Below are positions 8,582-21,961 of a DNA stretch of 64,000 nucleotides, piece after piece. How positions within the stretch are numbered: the stretch's first letter is position 1; the number at the start of each line of letters is the position of its first letter. The notes below the pieces were generated by a model. That model was not told where the DNA came from. It made no database searches and was given only the letters and a program-made list of their open reading frames with translations. Origin of the DNA: Isosphaeraceae bacterium EP7 (GTDB lineage: Bacteria; Planctomycetota; Planctomycetia; Isosphaerales; Isosphaeraceae); the NCBI GenBank assembly GCA_038400315.1, contig CP151667.1:5901174-5965173 (forward strand), given 5' to 3'. Position numbers and translations under genes: made by a program.

Positions 8582-9718
8582 TCAGTAAGAGTCGGAGCTG
8601 AGAATCTCGCCGCCGGCGCGGGTGCCCAGGGCCCACCACGTCGGGACGCTCACGGTGTCCTTGATGAACTTGACCGAGCCGTCGGCCATGGCCATGTTCA
8701 CGCCACCGGGATGGTTGCTGCTCGGGGGCTGGGCGTCATTGATGTTGCCCCACTGCTCGGTGTTCCCGTCGGCCGCGTTGTAGCATCCGGCGGAGTTCGG
8801 GGGCATCCAGTGGTTGTATGCGTCCCACATGAGTCCCGAGTTGGCGTTTCCGGAGATCCAGACATTACCCGACGCGGGGGCCAGTCCACCGCCGGACGCC
8901 TTGGCGGGGGTCGTCCCGGGCAAATTCTTGCAAGTGTTCACGAACAGCAAGGCCGCGGCGCTTCCGTTGATCCCCTGGTCGACGGCCTGGTTCAGCCCAC
9001 TGACGAAGAGGTAGGTCGACTTCCGCTTGGTCGTGCCGAGCGTGACGCTACCCGCCGGGGGTCCCGAGCCCATCAGGGTCTCGCTGAAGAGCGCCGTGTT
9101 CGAGGTGCCATCGGCAATTCCCTCGACGCCGAACGACGAGTTGTTGCTGTTGTTCTGGCCCGCGGTCGTGCTGCCGAAGCCTTGCGGGTCGCTCTTGAAG
9201 CAGACCATCGTGCCGGACCACATATTCATGGGCGAGGGGCCGCCGATGTTCCCGCGATAGTTCTTCCAGCCGGCCTGGATCGTCGGGACTTTCTGATCCT
9301 CGGACGGACACATCATGGTGCCGAGCTTGGTGAAGAGAACTGTCGTGTTCATCCCATACGTCAGGCTGCCGTTGCCGCCGTGGACGGACCAATTCAAGGA
9401 ATTGGCCATGACCGTCTGCTCCATCTGCGAGAGCAGCGACGCCGTCCAGTCGAGCGGCCAGGGGTCTCCGCTGGAGGTGGCCGCGTTATAGGCGTTTGAC
9501 ATGTTCTGGATGAGCGGGGGGAGGCAATTCTGCTGGGAGAGGTAATTGTGGGTGGCCAGGCCCAACTGCTTGAGATTGTTGGTGCACTGGGCACGCCTGG
9601 CCGCCTCCCGGGCGCTCTGCACGGCGGGCAGCAGCAGGGCGATCAGGACTGCGATGATGGAGATGACGACGAGAAGTTCGATCAGCGTGAATGCTCTGCG
9701 AGGTCGCACGGATGACAT
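8582..9718 (-). CDS. DUF1559 prepilin-like protein
   Basis: A 378-residue planctomycete pseudopilin. The N-terminus carries a type III (prepilin) signal: basic residues, then [17 protein letters not shown], with cleavage expected before Phe and Glu at +5. The region [20 protein letters not shown] that follows is typical of DUF1559. Near the C-terminus, [16 protein letters not shown] carries the H-X9-DG prepilin-associated motif. The substrate is processed by a prepilin peptidase not seen here. Its assembly machinery could include the PilM-N/PilO-like operon at 15.5-22 kb, but that link is inference. Confidence 0.93.
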
Positions 9719-15483: not shown

Positions 15484-15529
15484 AATGAGAACGGCCCCCG
15501 GTGGATATCCACCGGGGGCCGTTCTCATT
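15484..15529. terminator. Bidirectional terminator, 22-bp perfect stem
   Basis: The arms at 15484-15505 and 15508-15529 are exact reverse complements around a two-base centre, with T-rich sequence at the right edge and A-rich at the left. It separates the convergent coiled-coil gene and the secretion-platform operon. Confidence 0.85.
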
Positions 15530-15552: not shown

Positions 15553-17550
15553 TCAACGCATGCCGCCAGGTCCGCCCATCATTCCCATTCCACCTGGCTG
15601 CCGCTTTTTCTTGGAATCGTTGATGGCCCGACGATAGTTCCGAGTCATTTCCTCGCGGACGGGATCGGGCTCGTCGATCGCCTGGTTCCGGAGGATGACC
15701 GAGCCGTCGGACATGACGACCAGCGAGGTCGATGGGACGTTCATCATGCCGGGCGGGGTGCCGATTTGCGGGATCGGCTGCTGACCGCCGAGGGAGTCGA
15801 GCACGAGCATGTGACTTGTGAAGTCGATCGGCTTGGACTGCGCCCCCTTGCCCTCGTGGTCGGGGACGGCTGCGGCCCGATAGTCGCCGATCACCTCGCC
15901 GGGCCCGGCCTCGAAGTTCGAGATGACCGTCTGGCCATCCTCGGGGTTCCAGCGAACCACCTCATAGATGACCCGGTCGGGCCTGAGCCCGGCCTTGACC
16001 TTGGTCGTGGCGAAGGAGACGACGTCGGCGGGCACATGAACTTCGTCGCTCGGCTCGCTCCACGGTCCGAGGAGTTCCTCGGCCTGGGTGTCGACACCGG
16101 GTGTGACATCCTCATGCTTGAAGTTGGGGTTGTTCACCACGATCCGGATGCGGAAGCGATAGCTTTCGTCGGGGTCAACGGTGAAGTCGAGCGAGCGGAC
16201 CATGATTTCAGGCTGTTCCGACTTCTGGAACGCCGTGTAATCTCCGCCTCCACCCATGCCCATACCGCCCATCATCCCGCCCATCCCCATCCCGCCCATC
16301 GCCATACCGCCACGCATACCACCCATACCACCGCCGGGCATGCCGCCCATCTCACCATCGTCTCCACCACCCATGGCCATCCCGCCACGCATGCCGCCCA
16401 TGCCACGCATCCCCATCATTCCGCCCATCATCCCGCCCATTCCCATGCCGACGTTCTGCTCCTTGGGAAGCTCACGCTTCTCCTTGGGTACCAGGCGGGC
16501 GACGTGGACCTTCTCCCAGTAGCCCGCGTTGAGGAACGGCAGGGGATCGACGAGAGCTTCCATCCGAGCGTCATCGGGAACCCACTCCTCGTCGACTTCG
16601 GGCAGGTTGTCGATGACGAGCAGATTCTTGTCCATGTCCACGGCCTGCCAGTCGCTCCAGGTCCCGTCGGGCTTCAAGGCCTGCCGCTCGGAATCGACCC
16701 GCTTGTAGTTGGGATAGGCGAGGGCCGGGTCCTTCAAGGCGGCGAGATAGTTGCTTTTCAGCTTCTTGTTGTCGAGCACGGCGGTCAGCGAGACCCAGCG
16801 AAGACCTCGGGTCTGCTCCTTGGCCGGGGGCTCGATCTCGGCCGGTGCCCCTCCGGCAAGCGCTTCCTTCTCCTTGGCCTTGGCCTTTTCCGCTTCGGGA
16901 TCGACCTCGCCGGCCAGGACGCGGGCGATCTTGGCTTCTTCATCCTTTCGACGCTGCTTGGCCTCGTCGATCTGCTTCTGAGTCATGGCACCGCCGCCCA
17001 TGCCGGCCATCATCCCTCCGCCGGCGCCGCCCGCGCCTTGCCTGCGGCGAACACGACCAGGACGCGGCTCCTTGCGTTCGGCGGGGTCGTTCTCGTCAAT
17101 CGGGATCCGGTTGCCCTTCTCATCGAGTTCATAGATGAGGGCACCACCCCGGCCTGCGTGCGCGATCAGCTCGGTGGGCGCGATCAGGATGGGAGTGTCT
17201 CGGATCAGGCCGGCGCCAGGCTCGGTGCTGACCCAGAGCTTCTCGACCCGGTAGAGATCCGGATTGATCTGAGCGCCTGCGGCGGCGTCGACCATCTTCT
17301 CGAAGCCGGGGAGGGTGATGTTCTCCTCCTTCAGCTTCTCCTGAATCTGCTCGGGATCCTGGCGTCGTGCCAGGTTGGAATTGGCCGCCTCGGCCGCCTT
17401 GCTGACCTCGTCCGGGGTCAGCGGGATGGTCGGCTTCATGACGGCCAGTGCGACGAGCAGGACGAAGGTCGTCGCCGCCAGGGCGATGGCGGCTTTCTCG
17501 CCGTGGCGGATGCCGACGGCCTTCAGCTTCTCGACCATCGGGTGGGCCAT
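15553..17550 (-). CDS. Third protein of pilus/secretion-platform operon, Met/Gly-rich
   Basis: A 665-residue bitopic protein. A short cytoplasmic N-terminus precedes one membrane helix at about 21-38; the remainder should be outside the cytoplasm. It has two Met/Gly-rich tracts (about 170-190 and 365-433) and ends in GGMGMMGGPGGMR. A central charged stretch (about 190-235, KAKAKEKEALAGG) looks helical. No known domain was recognised; position and topology suggest a PilP-like or GspC-like partner, which is inference. The ATG at 17550 follows TTGGAG; the TTG in that site is itself an in-frame but less likely start. Last gene of the operon, ending at the strong terminator. Confidence 0.75.
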   Translation of the reverse strand: MAHPMVEKLKAVGIRHGEKAAIALAATTFVLLVALAVMKPTIPLTPDEVSKAAEAANSNLARRQDPEQIQEKLKEENITLPGFEKMVDAAAGAQINPDLYRVEKLWVSTEPGAGLIRDTPILIAPTELIAHAGRGGALIYELDEKGNRIPIDENDPAERKEPRPGRVRRRQGAGGAGGGMMAGMGGGAMTQKQIDEAKQRRKDEEAKIARVLAGEVDPEAEKAKAKEKEALAGGAPAEIEPPAKEQTRGLRWVSLTAVLDNKKLKSNYLAALKDPALAYPNYKRVDSERQALKPDGTWSDWQAVDMDKNLLVIDNLPEVDEEWVPDDARMEALVDPLPFLNAGYWEKVHVARLVPKEKRELPKEQNVGMGMGGMMGGMMGMRGMGGMRGGMAMGGGDDGEMGGMPGGGMGGMRGGMAMGGMGMGGMMGGMGMGGGGDYTAFQKSEQPEIMVRSLDFTVDPDESYRFRIRIVVNNPNFKHEDVTPGVDTQAEELLGPWSEPSDEVHVPADVVSFATTKVKAGLRPDRVIYEVVRWNPEDGQTVISNFEAGPGEVIGDYRAAAVPDHEGKGAQSKPIDFTSHMLVLDSLGGQQPIPQIGTPPGMMNVPSTSLVVMSDGSVILRNQAIDEPDPVREEMTRNYRRAINDSKKKRQPGGMGMMGGPGGMR
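16250..16455. repeat. Met/Gly-rich coding repeat tract, operon gene 3
   Basis: On the + strand this reads as imperfect CCCATNCC/CCGCCCAT units; on the coding strand it encodes strings such as GMGGMMGGMMGM and GGMRGGMAMGG. Similar tracts lie in the two preceding operon genes and in the sigma factor at 39048-41039. Confidence 0.85.
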
Positions 17551-17633
17551 GGTGGGCTCCAAGGGGTCGTGAGTCTTGGGGGAGGGGAAGTCGCCGCGAG
17601 TCGATCGCGGCTCCGAGGCTGGATCAGGTCAAG

Positions 17634-19355
17634 TTACTTGGGCGCCGGCTCGGCCTTGGGCTCATCGCCCTTGGCCGGCTCGGTGGGGGTGACGGCGGGG
17701 GTCTCGGCTTTCGGCTCTTCCGCCGGGATGGCCGCAGGCGTTTCGGCCTTCGGCTCTTCCGTCGGAGCCGGGGTCTCGGCCTTGGGCTCCTCGGCGGGCT
17801 TGGCCGGGTCGGTCACGGCCGGGGCCGGATCCACGGCGGGTGCGCCCGGGTCGATCACGGCAGGCGCCGCGGCCTCACCCTCCGCGGGGGTTTCGGCGGC
17901 CGAATCGGAGGGAGCCGCCTCGGGCTTGGTGGGCGGGTTGTAGAAACGTGCCTGACCGTAGACGACCACCTCGACGATGTTGTAGTAGGGGTCGTGGATC
18001 GTCCGGACCGTCACCTTGGCGAGTGCCTTTTCCTCGGTCTCACGCTTCGTCTTGCGATTCTCGCTGCGCTTGTCGACCCCCTTATTGACGGGGCCACCCA
18101 TCCCCATGCCCATGCCCATTCCTTCTCGGCCCATCATCCCCATGCCGCCGGGCATCCCCATGCCCTGCTGCCCCCTCATGCTCATCCCCATGCCGCCGGG
18201 CATCCCCATCCCTTCTCGGCCCATCATCCCCATGCCCATCATGCCTTCCATGCCCCCCATGTAGCCGCCACCGAAGCCGAAGCTTCCCATGACGCCCTTG
18301 ACGGGCTTCTCGACGCGAGTGGAGGGCTTGGACATCTCGAAGTCGCGGACTTCGATGGCCATCGGGGAGTTTTCCAGGGCGATCAGGAATTCGGGGATAC
18401 GGGTCTGGTCGATCAGGACCGAGATCTTGACGGGCATCACCTTGAACTGAGTGCTCTCGGTCGTGATGTAATAGACCGACTCGGTGGGGGCGCCGAACCC
18501 GCCCATCCCGCCACCCATCATCATCTCTTGCATGCCGCGCCCACCCATGGTGGGTTCCTCGACGACCTCCTCGGCGGCGACTTCCTCACCGCCGGCACTG
18601 ACCGGCTTCAGCTCTGGGGCTTCGGCGAGGACCTGTCCGTCGGCGATGGAGATCTGGTCCTGGGAGAGCTGGTCGCCGACGTCGACGAGGTTGATCTGCT
18701 TGATGATCGCGCCGTCCCAGTCCTTGGCCTGGGCATCATCATTGACCTTGCGGACGACGTCGAGCAGGGCTCGCTGGATCCAGAGGCGTTCCTGGGCACC
18801 CCAGACCTTGCCGAGTTCGGGGAGCTTGTTGACGTCGAACGGGGCGGGGCGCAACAGCGTCTCCTTGGGAGGCGCCGAGACGATTCCCTCGCCCGACTCG
18901 GGGTCGAATGGCTTGAAGGTGGAATAGATGCTGGTGACCTGGTCGGGATAGGCGATCACATAATCATTGATGGCCTGCTGGACCGACTGGGCATCGACGC
19001 CTTCTGGCCACTTGTTGCCCCACTCGTGGAACCTGGACTCGACGACCTCGGGCCAGGTCAGCAGCGACTTCTGGCGTTCGTAAAGCTTCTCCCAGCTCTT
19101 GGTGACGTCGCCGCTGAGGGCTTCGGTCTTCTCCTCGAGCAAGGGCGTGTACTGCGCATTGATGACGGACCCGGAAGCATAGGGCTTGACGCCTTCGCTG
19201 GCCGACTTGATCAGGGATTCCTTGTCGGAGGCGGCCTTCTTGACGGGCCCCGAGCCGACGAAGTAGGCGATCATCGGCAGGATCGCCGCGATCCCCATGG
19301 TGATCCAGAATCGATATTTGACCGCAAGGTTGAGGTAGACCTTGATCTGGTCCAT
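17634..19355 (-). CDS. PilO-like assembly-platform protein, Met/Gly- and Pro-rich
   Basis: A 573-residue bitopic protein. The membrane helix is at about 16-36 (FWITMGIAAILPMIAYFVG), after a short cytoplasmic MDQIKVYLNLAVKYR. The section near 295-345 (VMPVKISVLIDQTRIPEFLIALENSP) has the strand-helix pattern of the PilO C-terminal ferredoxin-like domain, in which a motif-poor core follows a membrane helix. Two Met/Gly tracts occur (about 268-285 and 360-423). The tail (about 515-573) repeats EEPKAETPA. The ATG at 19355 has GGGGGA 8 bases upstream. Second in the operon after the PilM-PilN fusion. The PilO assignment rests on order, topology and weak pattern only. Confidence 0.75.
   Translation of the reverse strand: MDQIKVYLNLAVKYRFWITMGIAAILPMIAYFVGSGPVKKAASDKESLIKSASEGVKPYASGSVINAQYTPLLEEKTEALSGDVTKSWEKLYERQKSLLTWPEVVESRFHEWGNKWPEGVDAQSVQQAINDYVIAYPDQVTSIYSTFKPFDPESGEGIVSAPPKETLLRPAPFDVNKLPELGKVWGAQERLWIQRALLDVVRKVNDDAQAKDWDGAIIKQINLVDVGDQLSQDQISIADGQVLAEAPELKPVSAGGEEVAAEEVVEEPTMGGRGMQEMMMGGGMGGFGAPTESVYYITTESTQFKVMPVKISVLIDQTRIPEFLIALENSPMAIEVRDFEMSKPSTRVEKPVKGVMGSFGFGGGYMGGMEGMMGMGMMGREGMGMPGGMGMSMRGQQGMGMPGGMGMMGREGMGMGMGMGGPVNKGVDKRSENRKTKRETEEKALAKVTVRTIHDPYYNIVEVVVYGQARFYNPPTKPEAAPSDSAAETPAEGEAAAPAVIDPGAPAVDPAPAVTDPAKPAEEPKAETPAPTEEPKAETPAAIPAEEPKAETPAVTPTEPAKGDEPKAEPAPK
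17637..17815. repeat. EEPKAETPA tandem coding repeats
   Basis: The last about 60 codons of the PilO-like gene contain three copies of EEPKAETPA and related PKAE units, seen on the + strand as recurring TTCGGCTCTTCC and TTGGGCTC words. It is probably a flexible wall-spanning or binding tail. Confidence 0.8.
18085..18270. repeat. Met/Gly-rich coding repeat tract, operon gene 2
   Basis: Encodes near-repeats of GREGMGMPGGMGM and MGREGMGMGMGMGG. Two close copies of a block of about 40 bases containing TTCTCGGCCCATCATCCCCA occur at about 18121 and 18211. Confidence 0.85.
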
Positions 19356-19448
19356 GGGATCATCCCCCGAACGTAAGGCTCGTGAGCATGGGTGTGGGAC
19401 CGATCCGGCGCGGACCGGCCCGTGGGTTCTGGCGTTGGGCGACGACTC

Positions 19449-19483
19449 CGTCACGCCGGCGATTGGGTCAAGCCGGCGTGACG
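19449..19483 (-). terminator. Hairpin inside the secretion-platform operon
   Basis: A perfect 12-bp stem (CGTCACGCCGGC and complement) with an 11-base loop sits in the 143-base gap between the first and second genes. Without a T-tract it may be an attenuator or a processing/stability element that sets the ratio of PilM-N to the later proteins. Confidence 0.55.
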
Positions 19484-19498
19484 GGTCGGTTAAGCGAG

Positions 19499-21961
19499 TT
19501 ACTTCGGCGTCGCAGGGGCTTCGGGCGTCGCGGGGACGGCCGGAGTCGCCGCGGGGGTCGTGCCGTCCACCGCGGCCGGGGCGGCCCCCGGATCGGCGAC
19601 GGCGGCTGCGTCTCCGCCCTCGGCCTTGGCCACGGCGGCCTCGACCTTCTGGAGGGTCTTCTTGAAGTCCTCAATCGCCTTGTTCGTTGCCTTCGATGAG
19701 CTGGCGGCCAGGGCCTCGTCGCTGGGGGGCCTGCTAACCCCCTTGTTCTTGGTGGCAGCCTCGGTCATCGCGGCCTGAATCTCGGCGATGGACTTGGAGG
19801 GTGCTTCGGGCGTCGGGGGCTGCCAGACCATCTGGATCATGAAGTCGGTGCGAGGGCGGGTGGTCAGATTCTTGGTGGCGGCAGTGCCCATACCCCCCAT
19901 CATCCCACCCTGTCGTCCCATCATCATGCCCATCATTCCCTCGCGGCCGCCCATGCCGCCGGGCATTCCCATGCCACCGCCGGGCATTCCGCCGCCCTGC
20001 TGGCGGCCCATCATGCCCATCATTTCCCGCATCCCGCCTCCGGGCATGCCTCCACCTTCACCACCCTCGCCGGCTTCAGCGACGGGCGGCGAGGCGCGGG
20101 CGAGGATGGGGACGCCGGCGGCCAGGCCATTGCCGCCCGCGGTCTTCTCGGTGGTCCAGGTCGGGTCGATCTTGATCCAGGCGAGGGCGACATGGTTGAC
20201 GCCGAAGGCCCGGAAAGACGCGGCCTGGAGCGTGGGAATCACGATGTTCTGGAGATAGTTGCGCGGACCGAGCTTCCAGGGGGCCGACTTGGCCTTCAGC
20301 TCGGCATTGGTGGGCGTCGGGTTGTAGTGGTGACCGATGACCTGGATGACCCAACCCTTCCCCTCGGGCGGGGTGTCGCGGTCGAGCGGATGCATGAAAT
20401 ACTTGAATTCCTCGGGGAACTCAGCGAACCACTCGGCGTTGAGGTCGTTCCGCCAGACGGGTTTGATCGCGTCGATGTGAACCCGCAGATCGTCGATGAT
20501 CGCCTGATCGGTCGGCTTCTCCTGGGGATTCAGGTTGAACCGAGCCACGGGGTCGGGCAGGTAGAGCGAGAACATCTTGAGGAACTGGGGCCAGGCGGCG
20601 CGGTTGGACGCGCCCGAGGTGAGCAGCTTGCCCTCGCCGAGTTTGGCCTCGAAGACCCCCTTGGCCGCGTCGTAGTCGGCCTTGAACTTGGCCCCCTTCG
20701 CGCTGGCGCTCTTCGCGGCGTCGACGGCGGTGGTGAAGGCGGGCTGGTTGACCTTCGCCAGGGCCTTGTAGTCGCCCAGGAAGAGGGCCGCGAAGCCGCC
20801 AATCAGCAGGGCCGCGGCGGCGAGGACCCAGGGCTTCTTGCGGCGGATCATCCGGACTTGCTCGATCTCCGGAGGCAGCAAGTTGGTCCGCATCGCGGCC
20901 TTGCCCAGGCCTTGCAGGGCCAGGCCGTAGACGCCCGGGAACGACGCCAGATTCTCCTGGAACTGCGGGGCGTTCTTGACCTCGTCGCCGGTCATCTGGG
21001 CGAACGAATCGAGCCGCTCGACCTCGTTGGAGAGGTTCTGCTGGAGGAACTTCTGCAACCCGGGCAGCTTGAACCCGTTGCCCATGCCCACGATCTTGGT
21101 GATCTTGGCGGCGCGGTTGACGCTGGAGTAGAAGCCGATCGAGCGGGTGATCTCGCTCGAATAGTCATTGAAGACCCCGCGCATCGCCTGGAAGATCTGG
21201 CGAGGGTCGGGGGCCTTGGTGGCGTTGCGCTTCAGGTGCTCGGCCTTGGCGAAGGTCTGCTTCAGCTCCTTCGTCAACGCACGCGTGAAGTGATTGCCGC
21301 CGATGGGCACGTTGCGCTGCCAGATGCGCACGCCGTCGGTGATGACCAGGTCGGTCTTGTCCGCGCCCATGTCGAGCAGGACGACCGCCTCGTTCTTCTC
21401 CATCCCCTTCTTCAACTGGTCGAAGACGATGAAGTTGTACAGGGCGATCGGGTTCATCTGGACGACGTCGACCTCGATGCCGGCGACCCTCAAGGGGAGG
21501 ATCGCTCGGTTGATCTGGTCGCGCTTCATGGCGAAGAGGCCGACCTCGGCCATCGTGAAGTCATCGTCGCCGTCGCCCGCATCGCCGCCGATCTGCTGGT
21601 AGTCCCAAACGACCTCCTCCAGCGCGAACGGGATTTGCTGGCGGGCTTCGAACTTGACGATGTCGGGGATGCGCTTCTTCTCGACCGGCGGCAGCTTGAT
21701 GAACTTGACGAGGCCGGCCTGGCCGGGGACGCCGATGGCGACCTTGCAGCCCTTCAGCTCGTTGCGGTCCATGAACGTCGCCAGCGCCTCGCGGACCAGG
21801 GCCTCCGGGTCGGCGTCGGGCTGGGAGAGGATCTTGGGGTATTCAATGAAGTCGAACGCCTCGGCGAGGACCGTGTCGGGGGTCTCGCCCGGGACGAGCT
21901 TCAACGCTTTAAGGGCAGCTTGCCCGATATCGAGCGCCCAAACGGCCTGGATCTTCGCCAT
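19499..21961 (-). CDS. pilM: PilM-PilN fusion protein with Met/Gly-rich insert
   Basis: An 820-residue fusion. Residues 1 to about 345 are a PilM actin-like ATPase domain: VWALDIGQAALKALKL, the middle VVLLDMGADKTDLVI and a late IVGMGNGFKLPGLQKFL are its nucleotide-site segments. Then RTNLLPPEI, the hallmark N-terminus of PilN, leads into a membrane helix (about 374-394) and a periplasmic part with GWVIQVIGHHYNP, PilN-like. A Met/Gly tract lies at about 634-692, and the tail is Ala/Pro-rich. In type IV pilus and type II secretion systems the PilM-PilN (GspL-like) pair links the cytoplasmic motor to PilO. The ATG at 21961 has AGGAG upstream; promoter at 22171-22200. First gene of the operon. 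Confidence 0.88.
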   Translation of the reverse strand: MAKIQAVWALDIGQAALKALKLVPGETPDTVLAEAFDFIEYPKILSQPDADPEALVREALATFMDRNELKGCKVAIGVPGQAGLVKFIKLPPVEKKRIPDIVKFEARQQIPFALEEVVWDYQQIGGDAGDGDDDFTMAEVGLFAMKRDQINRAILPLRVAGIEVDVVQMNPIALYNFIVFDQLKKGMEKNEAVVLLDMGADKTDLVITDGVRIWQRNVPIGGNHFTRALTKELKQTFAKAEHLKRNATKAPDPRQIFQAMRGVFNDYSSEITRSIGFYSSVNRAAKITKIVGMGNGFKLPGLQKFLQQNLSNEVERLDSFAQMTGDEVKNAPQFQENLASFPGVYGLALQGLGKAAMRTNLLPPEIEQVRMIRRKKPWVLAAAALLIGGFAALFLGDYKALAKVNQPAFTTAVDAAKSASAKGAKFKADYDAAKGVFEAKLGEGKLLTSGASNRAAWPQFLKMFSLYLPDPVARFNLNPQEKPTDQAIIDDLRVHIDAIKPVWRNDLNAEWFAEFPEEFKYFMHPLDRDTPPEGKGWVIQVIGHHYNPTPTNAELKAKSAPWKLGPRNYLQNIVIPTLQAASFRAFGVNHVALAWIKIDPTWTTEKTAGGNGLAAGVPILARASPPVAEAGEGGEGGGMPGGGMREMMGMMGRQQGGGMPGGGMGMPGGMGGREGMMGMMMGRQGGMMGGMGTAATKNLTTRPRTDFMIQMVWQPPTPEAPSKSIAEIQAAMTEAATKNKGVSRPPSDEALAASSSKATNKAIEDFKKTLQKVEAAVAKAEGGDAAAVADPGAAPAAVDGTTPAATPAVPATPEAPATPK
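19885..20060. repeat. Met/Gly-rich coding repeat tract, operon gene 1
   Basis: Encodes GGGMPGGGMREMMGMMGRQQ-type units, with MPGGGM and MMGRQ each repeated. Same composition as the tracts in the next two genes. Confidence 0.85.

Follow-up and report, generated by a model that had tools for sequence, protein, structure and literature searches.

The three proteins of a candidate pilus-like assembly platform in Isosphaeraceae bacterium EP7 carry Met/Gly-rich tracts, and the motifs in such tracts are matched among the platform proteins of one genome. This sharing of lineage-specific motifs is a protein-level feature, and the key point is that the disordered tracts of the subunits of one platform match each other, not that they are made of Met. 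Judging from the sequences, we give a probability of about 0.5 to a model in which the loops co-evolve and bind each other in the periplasm as sticker-and-spacer tethers. Tracts of low complexity tend to be written off as neutral; in this machine, three different proteins have retained matching tracts despite sequence turnover, and the system offers a direct and testable argument for adhesion through co-evolving disordered regions in a machine of the bacterial envelope. A literature search, with most subscription papers outside its reach, did not turn up any account of these tracts in the pilus proteins of planctomycetes.

The window, i.e., the whole stretch of 64,000 nucleotides that was analyzed, contains an operon of three consecutive genes on the minus strand, coding for proteins of 820, 573, and 665 residues (P0001, P0002, and P0003, respectively). 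P0001 (19499..21961) is a PilM-N fusion, with a cytoplasmic PilM domain followed by one membrane helix at about residues 378 to 395 and an extracytoplasmic PilN-like region. Profile searches identified a complete PilM domain (PF11104, residues 10 to 350, 7.5e-33, 114 bits versus a cut-off of 27), a score above the cut-off of TIGR01175 (160 versus 133, 8.1e-47), and matches of the N-terminal region to solved PilM structures (PDB 3jc8, 1.5e-40, residues 1 to 357; 2ych, 1.8e-22, residues 9 to 360). P0002 (17634..19355) has no sequence family match. Its AlphaFold model, with a core at pLDDT >90, is predicted to adopt the PilO/Amuc_1100 fold, a coiled coil followed by a ferredoxin-like domain. VIA-align ranked Amuc_1100 of Akkermansia (Z 11.4 for 6lad, with 177 aligned residues and an rmsd of 6.5; 10.8 with 166 and 4.0; 10.7 with 170 and 3.7) well ahead of PilO (Z of about 7; 6.9 for 2rjz), followed by unrelated folds. 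Foldseek by itself put the same entries first, but with an E value of 0.23. P0003 (15553..17550) is a beta-rich bitopic protein that gave no sequence match in Pfam, NCBIfam, or the PDB and a weak, fibronectin-III-like structural match of its AlphaFold model (Z 7.5). By its place in the operon, it is most likely the positional counterpart of Amuc_1099 of Akkermansia. An inverted repeat read by eye directly 3′ of its gene (15484..15527, minus strand) is the probable end of the operon.

The best explanation for the operon product is the inner-membrane assembly platform of a type IV pilus/type II secretion-like machine, made of PilM-N, the PilO/Amuc_1100-like protein, and the third bitopic protein. 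The genome also codes for two secretins and has eight T2SSE matches for extension ATPases, five of them near the full domain; all these genes are located elsewhere and none within this operon. In the neighborhoods of relatives, no conserved gene was found beside the three, neither a syntenic fourth partner nor a pilin neighbor. About 6 kb beyond the operon (8582-9718, minus strand) is the gene for a DUF1559 protein that has a prepilin methylation motif and may be a pseudopilin substrate.

This organization is reminiscent of the MUL2 locus of Akkermansia muciniphila, which encodes the type IV pilus-like proteins Amuc_1099 to Amuc_1101 and the pilin-like Amuc_1102 (PMC13174399), and in which PilM (Amuc_1101) similarly adjoins the PilO-fold protein Amuc_1100. 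We compared the two systems by family model, fold, and locus content, and noted the tracts on the planctomycete proteins. P0001 matches the Amuc_1101 family model NF045709 (2.3e-67), but its 228 bits over residues 1 to 420 fall under the curated cut-off of 650, making it a relative of that family rather than a member. The planctomycete operon also differs from MUL2 by its longer proteins and its lack of a conserved pilin neighbor. With PilMNOP of the type IVa pili of Pseudomonas, Thermus, and Myxococcus, it shares the PilM domain by sequence, the PilO fold, and the N-in bitopic layout. Unlike in those systems, PilM and PilN are fused, the third protein is no recognized PilP, and the low-complexity loops are long and matched. 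Pseudomonas PilO has conserved unstructured loops that matter for its function (PMC5805733); those are short hydrophobic segments, unlike the platform tracts.

An earlier note on this DNA had reported five Met/Gly-rich tracts in the three proteins. All five were found, with essentially the same boundaries, together with a sixth. In PilM-N, tract MN (residues 629 to 698, 19868..20077, on the minus strand like all the others) is a loop of the PilN-like region, and its slot is kept in 34/34 aligned family sequences. The PilO-like protein has a short tract, Oa (residues 265 to 293, 18477..18563), and a main one, Ob (residues 353 to 428, 18072..18299). In the third protein, we found tracts Ta (residues 170 to 194, 16969..17043) and Tb, the main one (residues 360 to 444, 16219..16473), and the additional C-terminal tail Tc (residues 653 to 665, 15556..15594), which is short in the window, yet conserved across the family. 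The densest 40-residue Met+Gly segment of each protein was reached in 0/2000 residue shuffles. Using low pLDDT as a proxy for disorder, we inspected AlphaFold models of P0002 and P0003, in which the tracts are stretches of pLDDT <50 (residues 259 to 288, 362 to 421, 167 to 185, 372 to 435, and 652 to 665 for Oa, Ob, Ta, Tb, and Tc, respectively) lying within confidently predicted domains or extending from their ends. By this proxy and by their Met/Gly composition, the tracts have the disorder and sticker-spacer make-up of a self-associating low-complexity domain. One membrane helix is predicted in each protein, and every tract lies on its C-terminal side. The charge distribution (positive inside), hydrophobicity, and what is known of PilM-N and PilO topology suggest that the tracts are extracytoplasmic, as had been predicted. 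A second type of low-complexity sequence, Ala/Pro-rich and Met-free, forms the tails that end PilM-N (19502-19700) and the PilO-like protein (17637-17930).

PilM-N was found in 41 of 45 genomes of the family; restricting the set to genomes with a completeness of ≥90% and a contamination of ≤5% left 26, all of which had it. Its closest named relatives, at 54 to 76% identity, include Singulisphaera, Paludisphaera, Tautonia, and Aquisphaera, i.e., Isosphaeraceae. We delimited the slots by their conserved flanks rather than by composition. They are kept in the 35 three-gene family relatives examined (35/35, regions L034 to L068), all of which have Met/Gly tracts in the operon proteins. Across the family, Met makes up 22% of the PilM-N slot, 19% of the main PilO slot, and 23% of the main third-protein slot, versus 1 to 2% of the remainder of the proteins. 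In family alignments the flanks are well conserved and the tracts themselves are poorly alignable. Throughout the Isosphaeraceae, the tracts retain both their position and their composition, and their absence from relatives, which the earlier note had named as the sign of a neutral expansion, was not observed. Among 20 other Planctomycetia genomes, a few nearly lack inserts, and the others have Gly-rich ones in these slots, in which the proportions of Met, Phe, and Tyr vary; the slots are preserved, but Met is just one of several sticker residues. In a PilM tree, high Met content marks the Isosphaeraceae and one separate genome (L103). At the scale of the phylum, Gly-rich tracts in these proteins make use of different stickers (PGMFG, GFDPFG, and GFDGGFG), and most other families of the phylum have no Met/Gly tract.

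The tracts of different proteins of one genome are more alike than tracts of different genomes, and more alike than each tract is to its own orthologues. For the PilM-N and PilO tracts, the 4-mer cosine is 0.338 within a genome versus 0.183 between genomes and 0.189 for orthologous tracts. Such values were reached in 0/5000 permutations for every pair of proteins, counts that are not exact probabilities because the genomes are related; this effect is lessened by using one genome per genus, and the matching held in that test as well as in the class. It was also reproduced in a set of named genomes. Shared 6-mers numbered 19.7 on average versus 1.25 after within-slot, composition-preserving shuffles, with significance in 31 of 34 genomes, showing that composition by itself is insufficient to account for the matching.

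Motif sharing between PilM-N and the third protein extends to distant lineages (0/5000), as exemplified by PGMFGPGMDPG in L144, GFDPFG in L146, GFDGGFG in L150, and MGMPG in L141. In the third protein, all four loci have the motif in the main slot, and three have it in the C-terminal tail as well; in PilM-N they are mostly found in a neighboring loop of the PilN region, not in the Isosphaeraceae slot. Among relatives at the phylum level, the PilO protein takes less part in motif sharing, and no matched tract was seen in many families. We scanned four genomes in full for their lineage motif, and all 20 copies fell inside the operon genes (PGMFG, 4/4 in G211; GFDPFG, 5/5 in G223; GFDGGFG, 4/4 in G253; MMPGMMxG, 7/7 in G037), the seven copies of G037 being distributed over all three genes. 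The motifs had been picked for being shared, but their exclusivity to the operon had not been picked. Matched low-complexity motifs between linked genes represent a signature that might help to locate interacting disordered regions in other systems.

Mutual adhesion of the loops would account for these features as follows. Disordered, Gly-rich loops occupy constant positions in the folded cores, and these loops would attach to one another in the periplasm, keeping many platform subunits together with no need for a rigid interface. With contacts made from tract to tract, the sticker would be free to drift if all the partners drift jointly, to Met in the Isosphaeraceae and to Met/Phe, Phe/Asp, or Tyr in other lineages. 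When residues attract their own kind, none can change alone, which would give rise to a private code in each lineage and to its exclusivity to the operon. Of the roles proposed earlier for the tracts, namely, metal binding, a self-associating linker, or a physical spacer, a self- or mutually associating linker appears to fit best, whereas a pure spacer leaves the matching of motifs among the three proteins of each genome unexplained. More tentatively, the periplasmic side of the platform as a whole might be held together, perhaps in a condensate-like state, by mutually adhesive disordered loops whose private code co-evolves in each planctomycete lineage.

The tracts might instead be short linear motifs that all dock onto the same partner, for instance, a secretin, a pilin, or an envelope component, with the motif following the pocket of that partner. 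This possibility, to which we give a minor but real chance, predicts the same within-genome matching and is in keeping with the repeated copies of short motifs in several slots. However, the conserved neighborhood comprises three genes and no syntenic gene for a partner, and in the Isosphaeraceae the tracts are low-complexity sequence and not an invariant motif, a property more in line with weak, multivalent contacts than with a specific pocket.

It is rather unlikely that the resemblance is non-adaptive, that is, that replication slippage and gene conversion between adjacent genes make the tracts alike and that these are merely tolerated spacers. Such processes do operate. DNA repeats within slots exceed those of synonymous shuffles in 16 of 35 genomes, indicating that the tracts grow by local tandem duplication, and DNA sharing between genes is above the synonymous expectation in 7 of 35; DNA exchange therefore contributes in some genomes. 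In four genomes (L045, L058, L059, and L062), tracts of different genes share DNA past this expectation, suggesting recent exchange between adjacent genes. Nevertheless, in matched stretches of at least six residues between genes, the proportion of identical degenerate codons is 0.548, versus 0.489 expected from codon use. The window (0.35 for 0.35 expected) and S. acidiphila are at expectation, and a true excess is found in few genomes (L045, L058, and L059). As synonymous codons are near random in these stretches while the residues are preserved, most of the matching is not accounted for by recent copying of DNA. Recent gene conversion was discarded as the main cause, given that excess DNA sharing is restricted to the 7 genomes. 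The codon data suggest that the matching was kept by selection after an old exchange, or arose by convergence, recent copying being involved in only a minority of cases.

The residues themselves provide further arguments against free drift. Six of the nine codons one step away from ATG code for Ile, Leu, or Val, and an unconstrained tract should hence contain many of these residues. From the first to the last Met, the main slots contain 2003 Met, but 54 Ile, Leu, and Val altogether; Thr occurs 39 times, and Cys is absent. This scarcity of replacements for Met speaks against a neutral expansion. The use of Gly codons is alike inside and outside the tracts, arguing that the DNA is not a simple repeat. 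With the same slots kept across the family and the class, the codon tests and the retention of Met disfavor neutral expansion as the sole cause.

A genome-wide taste for Met/Gly tracts would also favor a non-adaptive origin, and other proteins of the genome do have such tracts in a census made by DNA pattern only; composition by itself is therefore not exclusive to the platform. None was present in the secretins and extension ATPases of the genome at the six loci examined. In six genomes, in a control dominated by one secreted paralogous family, the non-platform tracts are devoid of the genome signature that the platform tracts possess (0.403 within versus 0.386 between genomes). A flavor common to all the Met/Gly tracts of a genome was thus not seen in these six genomes.

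In a redox-tuned variant of the mutual adhesion model, which we regard as improbable, Met stickers would be oxidized and repaired, thereby switching the cohesion of the platform. It would explain why Met, and not other hydrophobic residues, is retained in the Isosphaeraceae, and it has a precedent in yeast, where the association of the Met-rich low-complexity region of Pbp1/ataxin-2 is under redox control (PMC8394241). That region similarly is of low complexity and uses Met as a sticker, but it is eukaryotic, cytoplasmic, and unrelated, whereas the platform tracts are extracytoplasmic and matched among three proteins. The genome encodes an MsrB with a signal-peptide-like N terminus (L267, G000 C1:2114900); this exported-looking enzyme is, however, unlinked to the operon, and sister lineages use Phe or Tyr in the same proteins, which argues that oxidation sensing cannot be the general function.

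Finally, a role of Met in binding copper or another metal, as the earlier note had suggested, is very doubtful: MxM and MxxM spacings are present, and Met-rich periplasmic copper proteins such as CopI exist (PMC13308877), but the main slots contain no Cys and less than 0.1% His (which bears on Met sites completed by His or Cys, not on Met-only ones), sister lineages replace Met with Phe or Tyr, and no other conserved gene adjoins the operon.

Met/Gly repeats resembling the tracts also occur in other proteins. The tails of GroEL contain GGM repeats. Planctomycete secreted proteins have GGGM tracts, but these are regular GGM/GGGM repeats without a genome-specific signature. One family of secreted-looking proteins of about 550 to 620 residues is present throughout the Isosphaeraceae, with two regular GGM/GGGM tracts and several paralogues per genome (L154 and L157 in the genome under study; L246, L250, L251, L252, L253, L255, and L259 in relatives). 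A TPR-like protein with a GGGM-rich tail near its C terminus was found in two genera (L156 and L254). In the window itself, an ECF sigma factor fusion (P0004, 39048-41039, plus strand) has a long C-terminal part with a Met/Gly tract of its own, and a similar fusion with a tract is encoded in L155.
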